Shown in pieces: positions 27,209-34,148 of a DNA stretch of 37,169 bases. Location of the stretch: NCBI GenBank assembly GCA_025361425.1, contig JANYAH010000208.1, positions 1-37,169 on the forward strand. Reading direction: 5' to 3'. This DNA comes from Candidatus Solibacter sp. GTDB lineage: Bacteria > Acidobacteriota > Terriglobia > Bryobacterales > Bryobacteraceae. Position 1 is the stretch's first letter. Every line of letters starts with the position of its first letter. Below the pieces are notes generated by a model that was not told the origin of the DNA, searched no databases, and worked only from the letters and a program-made list of their open reading frames with translations. The translations under genes and the position numbers were made by a program.

Positions 27209-27934
27209 ATGAACCCTTCCAGCCTTACCGGTAAAACTATCCTCGTGACCGGCGCCGCCAAACGCATCGGCCGCGGCATCGCGCTGCGTCTCGCCGAAGA
27301 AGGCGCGCGCGTCGCCATACACTATCACCACTCGGAAGCCGAAGCGCGCCGCACCGCCGAGGAGTGCGGCGGCGCCGAACTCTTCCGCGCCAATCTGGAA
27401 TCCGTACCGGAGATCCAGCGCATGTTCGGCGATGTGGAGCAGCGCCTGGGACACCTCGACGGCCTGGTCAACAACGCCGCCCGCTTCACCCGCGTCGACC
27501 CGCTCGAAATCACCGAGAAGGATTGGGACTTCATCCACTCCGTCAACCTGAAGGCTGTCTTCTTCTGCTGCCAGCAGGCCGCGCGAATCATGAAGCGGCA
27601 GGGCGATGGACGCATCGTCAACATCAGTTCGTTGGGCGGCATCCGTCCGTGGGCGGAGCACGCGCACTACTGCACGTCAAAGGCCGGCGTCATCATGCTC
27701 ACTCGCGCGCTTTCCAAGGCCTTCGCTCCCGAAATCACGGTGAACTCCGTGGCTCCGGGCGTGATCCCCTTCGAAGACATCGACCAGCGCGGCAAACGTA
27801 TGATCGAGAACACCCCCGCACAGCGTGGGGGCACTCCCGCAGAAGTCGCCGAAGCCGTAGTGTATTTCCTGAAAGCGTCGAATTTCATTACAGGTCAAAT
27901 TCTTACAGTGGACGGCGGGCTGAGCCAAAAATAG
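27209..27934 (+). CDS. Short-chain dehydrogenase/reductase (pteridine-reductase/FabG-like)
   Basis: Classical SDR of 241 residues. The NADPH-binding TGAAKRIGRGIA near the N-terminus has the A/G-K-R-I-G form common in pteridine reductases, followed by VNNAARF, the catalytic serine in NISSLGG, YCTSKAG with catalytic Tyr and Lys, VNSVAPGVI, and the C-terminal FITGQILTVDGGLSQK. Substrate is not determined. ATG 27209 has GGAG a few nt upstream, preceded by an inverted repeat. Its last 120 nt have a diverged second copy at about 30526-30645, left by the tandem duplication. Confidence 0.93.
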   Translation: MNPSSLTGKTILVTGAAKRIGRGIALRLAEEGARVAIHYHHSEAEARRTAEECGGAELFRANLESVPEIQRMFGDVEQRLGHLDGLVNNAARFTRVDPLEITEKDWDFIHSVNLKAVFFCCQQAARIMKRQGDGRIVNISSLGGIRPWAEHAHYCTSKAGVIMLTRALSKAFAPEITVNSVAPGVIPFEDIDQRGKRMIENTPAQRGGTPAEVAEAVVYFLKASNFITGQILTVDGGLSQK

Positions 27935-28071: not shown

Positions 28072-30210
28072 ATGAAACGGACATTTTCGACTTTACCTTT
28101 GGTGCTGCTGCTTTGCGTGGCGGCTCCGGCAGCTACTATCCCTACCAAGGTCACGGTGAACGCCACCGCGGCCGCCAACGCAACATTTACGGCCTTCAAC
28201 CTTGCCGGTACGGCGAACTTCACGGGGGGCATCGGTAACGGAAGCTTCGTGAGTAGCATCTCTCTTGCCTCTCTAGACAACACCATCGCGGTTGCCGACT
28301 ACACTATCACCCTGGCGGCGGGAGGGACTCTGACCGGAAGACTGTCGGTCCCGGTTGCGGTGCTGACTGGCGGCGACACGGCGTCCGCCAGCGTCTCAAT
28401 GACCGTCACCGGTGGGACCGGGACGTACGTTGCCGCGACCAGTGGCACGATTCCTATCACTCTCACCGGCAGCGTCACGGGTGACTTGTTGGGCGGGTTC
28501 AAACTCATCAACTTCACTGGCGACGGCACGATTGTCACCGGTGGCGCCCCGCCGCCTGCCGTGCCCACCATCACCGAAGTACTGAATGCGGCGAGCAATA
28601 CCGCGGGCATTGCGCAGGGCGCGATCTTCATCATCAAGGGCTCGAACCTGAGTACCAACGGGTACACTCCGTTCGCGCCGCCGCGTCCTACCGTTTCCAG
28701 TGGCGTCAAGGTCACCTTCACACCCACCGGGGGCGGCGCCGGCACCGACGCGTATCTGGTCTACCTCTACAACCAAGGCAGCGTGAATCAACTGGCGGCG
28801 ATTCTGCCATCTACGGTACTTGTCGGCACCTACAACGTGACCGTCACCAACGGTACCGTCAGCACCCCGTTTGCGGCCCAAGTCGTGGCCAATAAGGTCG
28901 GCTTGTTCACGCAAGACTCCAGTGGCAGTGGACTCGCTTCGGTTCAGAACTACATCTCGGCTTCGGTTGTCGATTTGAACCGCTTGACTACTGGCTCGCT
29001 TAGCGGCACCACCATTTCTCCCGCCAAGCCCGGACAGTACATGCTGGCCTACGGAACCGGCCTCGGCGCCTACGGCGCGGGTGACAATACGACCTCGCCT
29101 GCCTTTGACTTTAGCAAGACCCTGAACATTCAGGCCGTCGTCGCGGGCGTCTCCATCCCGGTAGCCTACGCCGGCCGCGCCGGTTACGCTGGCCAAGATC
29201 AGATCAACTTCGTCCTGCCCACCAACATTCAGACGGGATGCTCGGTACCTTTCCAGTTGTCGGTCAATGGCGTGCTTAGCAATTCCACATTCATTGCCAT
29301 CGCGCCGGATGCTTCCGCGACCGCGTGCATCGTCCCCGGCTTCACCACGGAGCAGTTGAAGAATTTCGATGGTGGTGGAACCTACACGACCGGCGCTTTC
29401 ACGTTGACGCAGTTCTCGTTAACAGATCCAGCATTCGGGACCGTGAAATTGGAGTCGGCTGCGGGAGCGTTCACGCGGTTGACCGGCTTTCAACTCTCAG
29501 GCGCAGCGGCGCAGGATCAGAGCAAAGCGACGAACTCCTGCCAGGTCAATCGCACCGTGACCACCGCGGGCGATATGCCGACGGGCTCCGTCGTGAACCT
29601 GGATGCCGGAGCTATCACTCTCAACGGTCCTGGGGGTTCGAATATCACCAACCTGGCACTCACGCAGGACCCGACTTACAACAGCTACTCTGCCTTGCTC
29701 GGCAACTTCGGCATACCGGGCCAGACGGCAGGCGGCACAATCGTGCCCGGTACCTACACCCTGAGAGGCGTAGGGGGGAAGGGCGTCGGAGCCTTCAATG
29801 CTTCGGTTACCCTCGGGCCCACGCTCACGGTAAGCCCCGCCTTGCCCTCCACCGTGCTTCGCAGTGCGGGTTTGACCGTGAACTGGACGGGCGGAAACGC
29901 CTCCGATCTGGTGGAGATCCTCGGCTCTTCCAGTACCACATCCGGGACTGGCCTCAAGCAGACCGTCACTTCGGCGACGTTCGTTTGCACCACCACGGCG
30001 GGCAATCGGACGTTCACCGTGCCTGCCTCGATCCTGACGCAGCTGCCGGCCTCGACCGACGCGAACGGTGGTTTCCTGGCAGTCGCTTCCGCGGGGACCC
30101 CGACTAACGGAAACGGCCTGTTTACGGCTCCCTTGACCGCCGGCGGATCGATTGATGCCGGTTTCTTCCTGGGCTTTGTCGGCGTGGGCGCCACGGCCAA
30201 CTATCAGTAG
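28072..30210 (+). CDS. Secreted TIGR03437-domain (Solibacter-type) protein, intact copy
   Basis: 712 residues beginning with a signal peptide (MKRTFSTLPLVLLLCVAAPAA). An N-terminal Gly/Thr/Ala-rich beta region is followed by the TIGR03437 region: EVLNAASNTAGIAQGAIFIIKGSNL, then YLYNQGSVNQLAAILPSTV, PGQYMLAYGTGLGAYG, and YAGQDQINFVLPTNIQTGC. A Ser/Thr-rich C-terminal part follows. The domain is abundant in Solibacter and resembles IPT/TIG surface domains; function is unknown, adhesion being a guess. ATG 28072 matches the start of the broken copy. GGAGG (28053-28057) is 14 nt upstream, an unusually long gap, and lies in the loop of a small hairpin. A strong inverted repeat with T-run follows the stop. 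Confidence 0.88.
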   Translation: MKRTFSTLPLVLLLCVAAPAATIPTKVTVNATAAANATFTAFNLAGTANFTGGIGNGSFVSSISLASLDNTIAVADYTITLAAGGTLTGRLSVPVAVLTGGDTASASVSMTVTGGTGTYVAATSGTIPITLTGSVTGDLLGGFKLINFTGDGTIVTGGAPPPAVPTITEVLNAASNTAGIAQGAIFIIKGSNLSTNGYTPFAPPRPTVSSGVKVTFTPTGGGAGTDAYLVYLYNQGSVNQLAAILPSTVLVGTYNVTVTNGTVSTPFAAQVVANKVGLFTQDSSGSGLASVQNYISASVVDLNRLTTGSLSGTTISPAKPGQYMLAYGTGLGAYGAGDNTTSPAFDFSKTLNIQAVVAGVSIPVAYAGRAGYAGQDQINFVLPTNIQTGCSVPFQLSVNGVLSNSTFIAIAPDASATACIVPGFTTEQLKNFDGGGTYTTGAFTLTQFSLTDPAFGTVKLESAAGAFTRLTGFQLSGAAAQDQSKATNSCQVNRTVTTAGDMPTGSVVNLDAGAITLNGPGGSNITNLALTQDPTYNSYSALLGNFGIPGQTAGGTIVPGTYTLRGVGGKGVGAFNASVTLGPTLTVSPALPSTVLRSAGLTVNWTGGNASDLVEILGSSSTTSGTGLKQTVTSATFVCTTTAGNRTFTVPASILTQLPASTDANGGFLAVASAGTPTNGNGLFTAPLTAGGSIDAGFFLGFVGVGATANYQ

Positions 30211-30212
30211 CC

Positions 30213-30265
30213 GGAAGCGCACTTCCCCTCTCGCTACACTGAGGGAGAAGTGCGCTTCCCTTTTT
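30213..30265 (+). terminator. Intrinsic-terminator-like hairpin behind the intact TIGR03437 gene
   Basis: GGAAGCGCACTTC (30213-30225) pairs perfectly with GAAGTGCGCTTCC (30247-30259), with further CCTC/GAGG pairing inside, and is followed by TTTTT (30261-30265). It starts 3 nt after the stop codon. The right arm and T-run are the first codons of the dead kinase copy. Confidence 0.65.
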
Positions 30266-30645
30266 CGCCTGGCCTGGAACAGTACGGCGTCTTACCGGGG
30301 CCTGCCGGCGACCTCCTTCGGCGTTGCCCTCTTCGTCACCTACATCTTCGGCCCGCGGATCAACGACTACGCTTACGACAGCATGTTTCGCGCCTTTCGG
30401 CCCCGAAACTCGTCCAGATCCGCCTGCTTACCTCCGTCAAACCCAAGGCTGTGGCGGTCGACGTCATCCTGGCCGACTGCGGCGACCCCGCTGAAGGTGC
30501 CGCGCTCGCCCGTGCCTTTCAGCCACCCCCAACGCATGGCGGAACGCCGGCCGAAGTCGCCGATGCGGTAGTGTACTTTCTAAAAGCGTCGAATTTCGTG
30601 ACAGGTCAAATTCTCGCCATTGACGTAGGACTAAGCCAAAGATAG
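30250..30645 (+). pseudogene. Fusion relic: kinase 5' fragment joined to dehydrogenase 3' fragment
   Basis: 30250-30525 is a damaged copy of the start of the CHASE2 kinase gene (32241 onward). In the shifted frame it still encodes LAWNSTASY, SFGVALFVTYIFGPRINDYAYDSMFRAF, with an extra base in the early T-run and a deletion of about 90 nt. From about 30526 it becomes a diverged copy of the dehydrogenase gene tail (AEVADAVVYFLKASNFVTGQIL, ending SQR). The join lies at CCACCCCC, shared by both parents. It is open in one frame by chance but has no domain and is not expected to make a functional protein. It marks the junction of a tandem duplication. Confidence 0.85.
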
Positions 30646-30657
30646 TGGGGATCGGGA

Positions 30658-30686
30658 TAGACCGGGGCCGGTGCCAGAGGTAAACT
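30658..30686 (+). promoter_or_regulatory. Promoter ahead of the broken TIGR03437 copy
   Basis: TAGACC (30658-30663), 17 nt, TAAACT (30681-30686), equivalent to 27946-27974 ahead of the intact copy. The leader that follows is also strongly conserved between the two copies. Confidence 0.45.
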
Positions 30687-30782
30687 CCTGAAGTTTGTCC
30701 GCCAGACGGGGACCGGCGTGAGCTTGATGAGCCAAGTTTCCCCGAATTCTCGCTTTTAATAGTGGAGAACTCTAACAAACCT

Positions 30783-32166
30783 ATGAAACGGACATCTTCG
30801 ACTTTAGCTTTGGCGCTATTCCTTTGCGCAGTGGCATCGGCGGCCATCACCAATATCCCTACCACGTTGACAGTGAATGCGACTTTATCCACGGACTTCA
30901 AGACCTTCGTGGTTGACGGTACGGCGAACTTTACGGGCAGCATCGGTAACGGCCGCGCTCTATCCGAAACTAAGGAAACTACTGCGGCCGCCTTCACCAT
31001 CAAGCTGACGGCGGGCGGGACTCTGACCGGAGACCTCTCGGTTCCGGTTTCGTTGCTGGTGGGCAGCTCCGACACGGGCTTGGCGGGAGAAATTGTGATG
31101 CCGCTGACCGAGCTGGTGGTCAGGCGGTTCAAATCGACGACCCCCGGACCCATGTAGTTCTGAAGGGAAGCCTGGCCGCTGATCAGATTAACTTCACCCT
31201 TCCCACCAACGTCCCGACCGGCTGCGCCGTCCCTCTACAGATTTCCGTGAACGGCCAACTCAGCGCCGCCACGTCTATCTCCATCGCCCCCGATGCCAAC
31301 TCCAGCGCCTGTGTCATGCCCGGTTATACGTCCGCGCAATTGCAGCACTTCGATCAGGGCGGAACTGTCACCAGCGGCGCGTTCTCCATCACGCAGTTTG
31401 CGATATCCGTGTCTCCGGCCGGCACGCAGAAGATCAATTCCATTGCCGGTGGTTTCACCAAGGTCACTGGCATGCAATTGGCGGCTGCCGCTCAAGGGAA
31501 TGTGTCCCTCATCCAGTCCGGAAGCTGCATGGTGATTCAAACGACCACTACCGGCACCGGCACCGCCTCCACCGGCAGTCAGACTTTCCTGGACGCCGGG
31601 GTAGTTACTATAGACGAGCCCCCCGCTTCCGGCCTGACCAATCAGGCCCTCACTAAGTCTGACAACAGCTACTCCCTCACCAGTATCGAAGGCTTCAGCC
31701 TTGGCGGGGTGCCCTTCTCGCTGCCCGCTGAAAGTACACCTTGAAAGGCGCCGCTGGCGACGACGTCGGATCGTTCAGCACCTCGCTCACTCTCGCTTCT
31801 CCGCTCACCATTACCGGTGATTTGCCCGCCACCATCACCCGTAGCGCGGGGCTGACTCTCAACTGGAACGGCGGCAATCCGTCGGATATGGTAGAGATCA
31901 TCGGCAACTCCGGGACTACTACCGGTACCGGCAGCAGCGCGGTCACCAACACGTCCTCGTTCATCTGTATAACTACGGCCGGCCAGAGGACGTTCACCGT
32001 GCCGGCCTCGATTCTTAACCAGTTGCCTGCCACGCCTACGGGATTCCTCATCGTCGCCTCGGGTGTCACCCCCGCCAAGTTCACGGCCTCCTGGAAGGCT
32101 GGCGGCTCGATCGACGGTTATTTCAGCAGCTTCCTCGGTATCGGCAGCGCGCCCGCATATCGGTAG
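30783..32166 (+). pseudogene. Second TIGR03437 gene, broken by deletions, an inversion and a frameshift
   Basis: It begins like the intact copy (MKRTSSTLALALFLC signal peptide, then TANFTGSIGNG and GGTLTGDLSVPV). After about 31073, roughly 590 nt of the intact gene are missing. 31075-31138 matches the intact gene in reverse orientation, and the first frame stops at 31157. Similarity resumes near 31165 (ADQINFTLPTNVPTGC) after a second loss of about 150 nt and continues to the end. A one-base loss near 31727 shifts the frame, which stops at 31744 while the other frame carries YTLKG through to GSAPAYR and stop at 32166. The start fragment could still give a 125-residue secreted peptide. Confidence 0.88.
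31075..31138 (-). other. 64-bp inverted block inside the pseudogene
   Basis: Reverse complement of this block matches 28969-29032 of the intact gene at about 56 of 64 positions and encodes VDLNRLTTSSVSGITISPAKP on the minus strand. It is flanked on both sides by deletions relative to the intact copy. Confidence 0.85.
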
Positions 32167-32240: not shown

Positions 32241-34148
32241 GTGCGCGTCCCTTTTCGTCTGGCCTGGAACAGTACGGCGTCTTACCTGGCCCTGCTTGCG
32301 GCCTCCTTCGGCGTTGCCCTCTTCGTTAGCTACATCTTCGGCCCGCAGATCAACGACTACGCTTACGACAGCATGTTCCGCGCCTACCGGCCGCCGAAGC
32401 CCGCGCAGCCGGAATCCGTGGTGCTCGCCATCGATGAGTTGACCCTGATGGATTGCGGCGGAATTCGCGGGATCCGGCGGCCCATCGCGCAGGCGATGCG
32501 CCTGCTGGCGCCAGTCAAACCGAAAGTGGTGGCGGTAGACGTCATCCTTGCCGACAGCGGCAACCCCGCGGAGGATGCCGCGCTCGCCGAGGCCTTCCAC
32601 GCCACCCCTAATCTGGTCCTCTCCACCGAACTGATCGACGGCGGCCGCATCTGGGAAGATCCGCGCCCCGAGTTCGCCGGCGGCGCCAGGCTGGGACACG
32701 TCTCCACGCTAATGGACAAGGATGGCGTGACGCGTTCCATCCTGATCGACCAGCACAACGCCCGGGTGCAGCGGCGGGCGCTGGCGCTCGAAGCCTTCCT
32801 GCTGAGCCGCGGCGGGCGCACGCCGCGCGAATCGCTCACCTTCACGCGCTTCCGCGGCGGCCTGGTCAGTGCGGAAATTCAGGTGGGCGAGGTCACCGTC
32901 CCGGTGCTGGAGGACCGCCGCGAACATCGCCGCCTGATGCGCGTTCGCTACTTCCCCCCGGACCTGACGGTGGCCCCCGTCTCCATGAAACGGCTGCTGG
33001 ACGATCCCTCGCTGGCCGCCCAATTCGCCGGCAAAGTGGTCTTCGTGGGCGTCACCGCCAATTCGGAGATCCACGACCGTCTGTTCACTCCCTTCGGCCT
33101 GACCCCGGGAACCGAAATCAATGCGGCCGCCTTCGAAACCATGGCGCAGGGGATGTTTCTCACCGACGTGGGGACGCTGTGGGAGAACCTGATCTCTCTC
33201 GGCCTGCTGGTGGCCATCGGTCTGGCCTTCCGTCACCTGCCCGGATGGTGGGCTTACGGCACGGGTGGGTTGCTGCTGCTCGGCGCGATCCTCATTCCGT
33301 ATCTCTTTTTCCTCAACCTGCGCGTCTTTCCCTTTGCGACTTTGTTCCTGGTGGCATGGCTGGGCACGTTGACGGCCGCGTCTTACTATCACCTGGTGGT
33401 GCGCCGCAACCTGCGGATTGAGCAGGCGTCGCGCGAACGCTATCAGCAGGCCATGCACTTTGTAACTCACGAAATGCGCACGCCGCTCTCCGCCATCCAG
33501 GGATCTAGCGAACTGATTTCCCGCTACCTGTTGACCGAAGAGAAGCGCAAGCAGATCGCCTTGTTGATCAACTCCGAATCCAAGCGCCTGGCGCGGATGG
33601 TGGAGATCTTTCTCAACGTGGAGCGTCTTTCCGCCGGGCAGATGGAGCTTAAGCAGGAGGCCATTTCAGTGAAGCAGATGATGGAGCTCTGCGTGGAGCG
33701 CGTGAGCCCGCTAGCCGAGCGCAAGCACATCGTTATCACGCTGGAACCGGTGCCCGAAGAGCTCAATCTTACCGGCGACCGCGAACTGGTGGAGTACGCT
33801 TGCTACAATTTACTTACTAACGCGGTGAAGTATTCACCCCAACGTACCGCGGTAACTGCCTCTGCCTGGAAGGACGATAGCTGGATTCATATCGCAGTCA
33901 AGGATCAGGGGATTGGTATGGACCAGAAGGAAGTGAAGCATATCTTCCAGAAGTTCTACCGTACGAAAAAGGCGGAAGAATCCGGGGAGGCCGGCACCGG
34001 AATCGGGTTGTCTATTGTCCAACAGATCGTGGACCAGCACGGCGGGCGTATTGACGTGACCAGCAGGCCGGGGGCCGGCAGTTGTTTCACGGTGGTTATG
34101 GCGGCCCGCGTGGCTGCCGGCGTACCTGCCGCGGCGAAACGAGATTGA
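32241..34148 (+). CDS. CHASE2-domain sensor histidine kinase
   Basis: 635 residues. An N-terminal membrane segment (LALLAASFGVALFVSYIFG) is followed by an extracytoplasmic CHASE2 sensor domain (about 40-300; VVLAIDELTLMDCGG, VDVILADSGNPAEDAALAEA, GKVVFVGVTA) and three membrane segments (about 310-390). HisKA with phosphorylated H410 in VTHEMRTPLSAIQ comes next, then HATPase_c with NLLTNAVKYS, DQGIGMD and GTGIGLSIV. The ligand is unknown. GTG 32241 is chosen by comparison with the duplicate at 30250; TATACT (32226-32231) is 9 nt upstream, so a very short leader is likely. It overlaps the regulator gene by 1 nt (TGATG), so this is a co-translated two-component pair. Confidence 0.93.
   Translation: MRVPFRLAWNSTASYLALLAASFGVALFVSYIFGPQINDYAYDSMFRAYRPPKPAQPESVVLAIDELTLMDCGGIRGIRRPIAQAMRLLAPVKPKVVAVDVILADSGNPAEDAALAEAFHATPNLVLSTELIDGGRIWEDPRPEFAGGARLGHVSTLMDKDGVTRSILIDQHNARVQRRALALEAFLLSRGGRTPRESLTFTRFRGGLVSAEIQVGEVTVPVLEDRREHRRLMRVRYFPPDLTVAPVSMKRLLDDPSLAAQFAGKVVFVGVTANSEIHDRLFTPFGLTPGTEINAAAFETMAQGMFLTDVGTLWENLISLGLLVAIGLAFRHLPGWWAYGTGGLLLLGAILIPYLFFLNLRVFPFATLFLVAWLGTLTAASYYHLVVRRNLRIEQASRERYQQAMHFVTHEMRTPLSAIQGSSELISRYLLTEEKRKQIALLINSESKRLARMVEIFLNVERLSAGQMELKQEAISVKQMMELCVERVSPLAERKHIVITLEPVPEELNLTGDRELVEYACYNLLTNAVKYSPQRTAVTASAWKDDSWIHIAVKDQGIGMDQKEVKHIFQKFYRTKKAEESGEAGTGIGLSIVQQIVDQHGGRIDVTSRPGAGSCFTVVMAARVAAGVPAAAKRD

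Follow-up and report, generated by a model that had tools for sequence, protein, structure and literature searches.

How did a short stretch of a gene come to lie on the opposite strand, with the sequence that once flanked it missing on both sides? The question arises from two copies of a gene lying one behind the other in the window, by which we mean the whole stretch of DNA that was analysed (37,169 nucleotides). An earlier note had described an inverted island between two deletions in the broken copy, and the antisense alignments reported here bear this out, with corrected limits. Below, we set out the surroundings of the two copies, the limits of the island, the condition of the gene that carries it, and the events that may have produced it.

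A tandem duplication with gene fragments at its ends

The genes of this locus, all on the plus strand, run in the order SDR oxidoreductase, copy 1, CHASE2 5' fragment, SDR 3' fragment, copy 2 and intact CHASE2 kinase. The first of these is an intact SDR-family oxidoreductase (27209..27934; Pfam adh_short_C2, 3.4e-56), whose 3' end opens the duplicated unit on its left side. Copy 1 (28072..30210), the reference for copy 2, is intact and encodes 712 aa with a Soli_cterm domain (NCBIfam TIGR03437, 1.9e-41; 142.3 bits, over the curated NCBIfam cut-off of 29.05). It is followed by a decayed 5' fragment of a CHASE2 histidine kinase gene (30250..30540), the right end of the first unit, which is 85.3% identical to the genome's own full gene at 32241 and carries a 1-nt insertion and an internal deletion of ~87 nt. 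At the duplication junction, ~30540, the kinase fragment gives way to the SDR 3' fragment (30541..30645), the left end of the second unit, which is 71-84% identical to the SDR 3' ends of congeners and, together with the spacer, 78% identical to the SDR gene of the same genome. Beyond copy 2 lies the intact CHASE2 sensor histidine kinase gene (32241..34148; PF05226, 3.5e-33; HATPase_c, 1.8e-27).

The unit that was duplicated in tandem therefore consists of the SDR 3' end, the TIGR03437/Soli_cterm gene and the 5' end of the CHASE2 kinase gene. With partial neighbour genes at the junction and a single copy in relatives, the arrangement is a tandem segmental duplication, and this origin of the entire cassette goes beyond what the earlier note had described.

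The relatives came from a public collection, under titles such as Candidatus Solibacter and Bryobacterales, and all are MAGs. In each of the five congeners with a complete locus (G001, G002, G004, G007 and G008), a single gene, open over its full length and in direct orientation, lies between the SDR and kinase genes, and none of the five has the same tandem duplication. In G002, the contig with the gene stops ~46 nt into the kinase gene, the remainder of which is on another contig. The same SDR gene lies upstream in the congeners, at a DNA identity of 82-90% (75% in G004), and one further locus (L057) has an SDR gene, a single gene and CHASE2 in the same order. The other loci are incomplete: the contigs of G003 and G006 end within the gene, and that of G005 ends near the spacer. 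The G005 gene upstream of CHASE2 (locus L047, 151-2154) is much more divergent, as if replaced, with 31-35% protein identity across the Soli_cterm and C-terminal parts. A search for relatives in plasmid records gave no match. Because the five congeners carry a single direct gene, the direct orientation is ancestral and the scar arose on copy 2, so that the direction of change is clear.

The inverted island and its limits

The reverse complement of 31075-31138 matches 28969-29032 of copy 1 at 56 of 64 positions, ungapped (E = 9.7e-19 in the 37-kb window), where the earlier note had counted about 56, and the rest of the window holds no other match to this block stronger than E 0.23. While the inversion itself is upheld, the island is longer than the 64 bp first assigned to it. 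By BLAST, the antisense match to copy 1 continues over 31075-31171 (97 nt, 81% across 100 columns with 6 gap positions); against congener G001 (locus L043), antisense identity is 79.4% across all 107 nt of 31075-31181; and the final eight bases of the flipped block, GGCCGCTG, are identical to the flipped sequence of G008. The island at 31075..31181 (minus strand, 107 bp) corresponds, in reverse complement, to 28926-29032 of copy 1. Its right edge lies between 31171 and 31181, an uncertainty of ~10 nt.

Alignment against both strands, the check proposed at the outset, gave a clear answer. For 31078-31181 against copy 1, the antisense score is 99 and the direct score 19, while the highest score among the controls, 200 codon-shuffled sequences, is 32. 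When copy 1 and G001 are taken together, antisense scores of 99-102 stand against direct scores of 17-19 and shuffle maxima of 30-32; the block has no direct-orientation homology to either above the shuffle level.

Three ordered blocks, direct, antisense and direct, account for copy 2. The 5' part (30783..31077, plus strand) is direct and in frame and aligns to 28072-28381 of copy 1 at 67% in a multiple alignment. The 3' part (31181..32166, plus strand) is again direct and is 75-77% identical to G001, G002 and G007. Between them, in copy 1 coordinates, ~545 nt are missing to the left of the island (28382-28925) and 164 nt to its right (29033-29196). The loss on both sides had been recognised before, but the sizes then given, about 590 and 150 nt, need revision; the left gap is smaller than first given because the inverted block is longer than had been assumed. 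In all, copy 2 has lost ~815 bp and holds in their place 107 bp from within that same stretch, in reverse complement.

Could the island be a fault of assembly, or a chimera? The assembly is of the metagenome type and fragmented (5.32 Mb in 377 contigs, with the window on contig C108), and the congeners that were found are MAGs. However, the block differs by ~20% from its nearest homologues and occurs once, with no copy elsewhere in the genome assembly except that in copy 1, and the window contains no N characters. Since the block is unique and the junctions share only 1-3 bp, the assembler had no repeat on which to flip it. Moreover, the kinase fragment left by the duplication also shows decay, which is what real DNA of some age should show. 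We give an artefact only the slimmest of chances.

State of the second copy

The scar brings an in-frame TAG into copy 2, within the island (31155..31157, plus strand), which closes the frame 124 codons after the ATG at 30783 (ORF 30762-31157). Further on, a single 1-nt deletion near 31735 cuts the 3' part into two frames, with ORFs at 31247-31744 and 31741-32166. Copy 2 is thereby broken twice, and in its rearranged form it is a null allele, with no evidence of any function for the result. A 229-aa antisense ORF (30464-31153, minus strand), beginning VVDLNRLTT...ISPAKP, spans copy 2 and the flipped block; it is unlikely to be a gene, and is a product of the inversion and of G+C-rich coding sequence.

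Differences between the 3' part of copy 2 and G007 fall at codon positions 1/2/3 as 80/49/110, compared with 101/58/112 for the functional pair G001 and G007. The nearness of the two patterns argues that the loss of copy 2 is probably recent and that the gene had been maintained through most of its history.

This condition bears on whether the scar accumulated piecemeal, with an inversion first and one or two deletions afterwards, in a gene by then free to decay. Other lesions do exist, namely the 1-nt deletion in copy 2 and the ~87-nt deletion in the kinase fragment. Yet ~1.4 kb of copy 2 contain only that one frame lesion besides the scar, the 3' part keeps the codon pattern of a selected gene, and a deletion would have to meet the inverted remnant at both its edges. 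Independent events of this kind appear unlikely.

Junctions and mechanism

At the left junction, 3 bp (CGG, 31075-31077) are common to the island, the left flank and both templates; at the right junction, ~1 bp is shared, the G at 31181 being common to the island and the right flank. There are no inverted repeats at the block ends in the interval 31000-31260, nor any bounding the equivalent segment of copy 1 or of L043. The absence of inverted repeats from the block ends and the minimal sharing of bases at the junctions argue against repeat-mediated or site-specific inversion, including a phase-variable switch.

To invert DNA, synthesis must cross to the opposite strand, or the DNA must break and be rejoined flipped. 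Replication slippage, which the earlier note had offered alongside repair, is insufficient alone, as simple slippage cannot invert DNA, while an origin in a repair or replication error is the best explanation. In copy 1 coordinates, the four switch points fall in the order 1<3<2<4 (28381 < 28926 < 29032 < 29197), with the block reversed relative to the ancestral sequence and ancestral sequence lost from both flanks; this is the pattern termed del-INV-del or 1-3-2-4. In the 1-3-2-4 class of template switch, a larger region is replaced by a shorter reverse complement, and an inter-strand switch is needed wherever point 2 is ahead of point 1 (PMC7954356). In E. coli, template switching is an established source of mutation (PMC7202029, PMC6357072).

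As a single event, the most economical account is one local rearrangement in copy 2, a microhomology-primed inter-strand template switch, to which we assign a probability of about one half. The growing strand, ending in CGG, would come off its template at the equivalent of 28381, copy the opposite strand between 29032 and ~28926, starting from 29032, and rejoin the original template at 29197. That there was one event, and that it took place during replication, is our inference. A difficulty is the length: such fragments are usually short, and the template-switch model has an expected length of ~10 nt (PMC7954356), against the 107 nt and the skips of 545 and 164 nt seen here. In addition, microhomologies of 3 and 1 bp are not clearly more than chance.

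The strongest competitor is end joining: two double-strand breaks free a short fragment, the ends are trimmed, and joining of the Ku/LigD type reinserts the fragment flipped. Shared sequence of 1-3 bp at the junctions is typical of end joining, and the junctions here share just that; the genome assembly also encodes a Ku family protein (E 4.6e-46). On the other hand, two breaks and two joins close together are required, and nothing in the sequence favours end joining over a template switch. Either route yields an identical product, and the sequence is compatible with both. While end joining is a possibility to be taken seriously, we prefer the template switch because it needs only one episode.

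Source of the flipped block

If copy 1 lies nearby with the same segment intact, was the block copied from it? Identity of the block over 97 nt stands at 80.4% with copy 1, 79.4% with G001 and 74.2% with G008; with G007, G002 and G004, whose allele there is of another type, it drops to 58-63%. Of the sites that distinguish copy 1 from G001, the block agrees with copy 1 at ~7 and with G001 at ~8, and only 2 sites are common to copy 2 and copy 1 alone. Being equally near to copy 1 and to G001, the block was not recently copied from copy 1; recent antisense copying would have left it far nearer to that gene. On its sequence, the simplest reading is that the flipped block looks like copy 2's own segment.

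The opposing view is that an ectopic template switch between the tandem copies placed a segment of copy 1 in antisense into copy 2, so that the island records an exchange between paralogues. The 64-nt core is nearest to copy 1 (87.5%, against 82.8% for G001), while the direct part just downstream of the block is closest to G001 (79.9%, against 67.6% for copy 1). This leaning of the core makes an older copying event conceivable, but the equal distances over 97 nt and the scarcity of exclusive sites count against it, and we regard an origin in copy 1 as improbable. More doubtful still is the wider proposal that antisense copying of copy 1 into copy 2, as inter-paralogue, inter-strand template switching over >100 nt, lets tandem Soli_cterm genes exchange sequence.

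Copy 1 itself has a mosaic look: identity to G007 is 84% over the first 310 nt but 65% over 28936-29032, where identity to G001 is 86%. Over the last kb, its identity to the relatives compared is only 60-67% (45% for G005), below the 75-77% of copy 2 to G001, G002 and G007. Two allele types, VVDLNRLTT and QLDIDRFTT, are scattered over the genus, a distribution suggestive of exchange between species. Alleles of the Soli_cterm domain that look mosaic between species are a context for any reading of exchange between paralogues.

Comparison with known classes of rearrangement

The scar, a real but ordinary one of repair or copying, adds a new case to a mutation class that is already known. The earlier note had called the signature one seldom caught in a paralogue pair. 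The pattern already has names in the literature (del-INV-del, and the 1-3-2-4 template switch), and the mechanism is therefore nothing out of the ordinary. A literature search on microinversions in bacterial genomes found nothing close. What the locus offers is a clearly resolved small del-INV-del in a bacterium: one can read the ancestral state, the two junctions and the segment from which the block came. Such scars are easily missed because aligners tend to show nothing but a deletion and some unmatched filler. For Acidobacteriota, the locus is a single further data point on template switching or the end joining of a flipped fragment, and it has no bearing on any new system.

Inverted-repeat-mediated inversion of spacers (PMC8604942) and quasipalindrome mutations in E. 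coli (PMC7202029) share with this scar the principle that template switching can invert a short segment; here, however, the block ends carry no inverted repeats and the flanking sequence was lost. The delINVdel complex structural variants of human nomenclature (PMC5338099) likewise have an inversion with a deletion on each side, but they are of larger scale and come from long-insert genome sequencing, whereas the present case lies in a bacterial gene and spans hundreds of bases. The closest likeness is to the short-range 1-3-2-4 template switch in the four-point model of Loytynoja and Goldman (PMC7954356). There, as here, a larger region bounded by points 1 and 4 is lost, the inner segment 3-2 stands in its place as a reverse complement, and with point 2 ahead of point 1 only an inter-strand switch fits. 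The flipped segment, at 107 nt, is much above the ~10 nt of that model, and it lies in the pseudogene of a bacterial tandem duplicate, whereas the model was applied to an ape genome.
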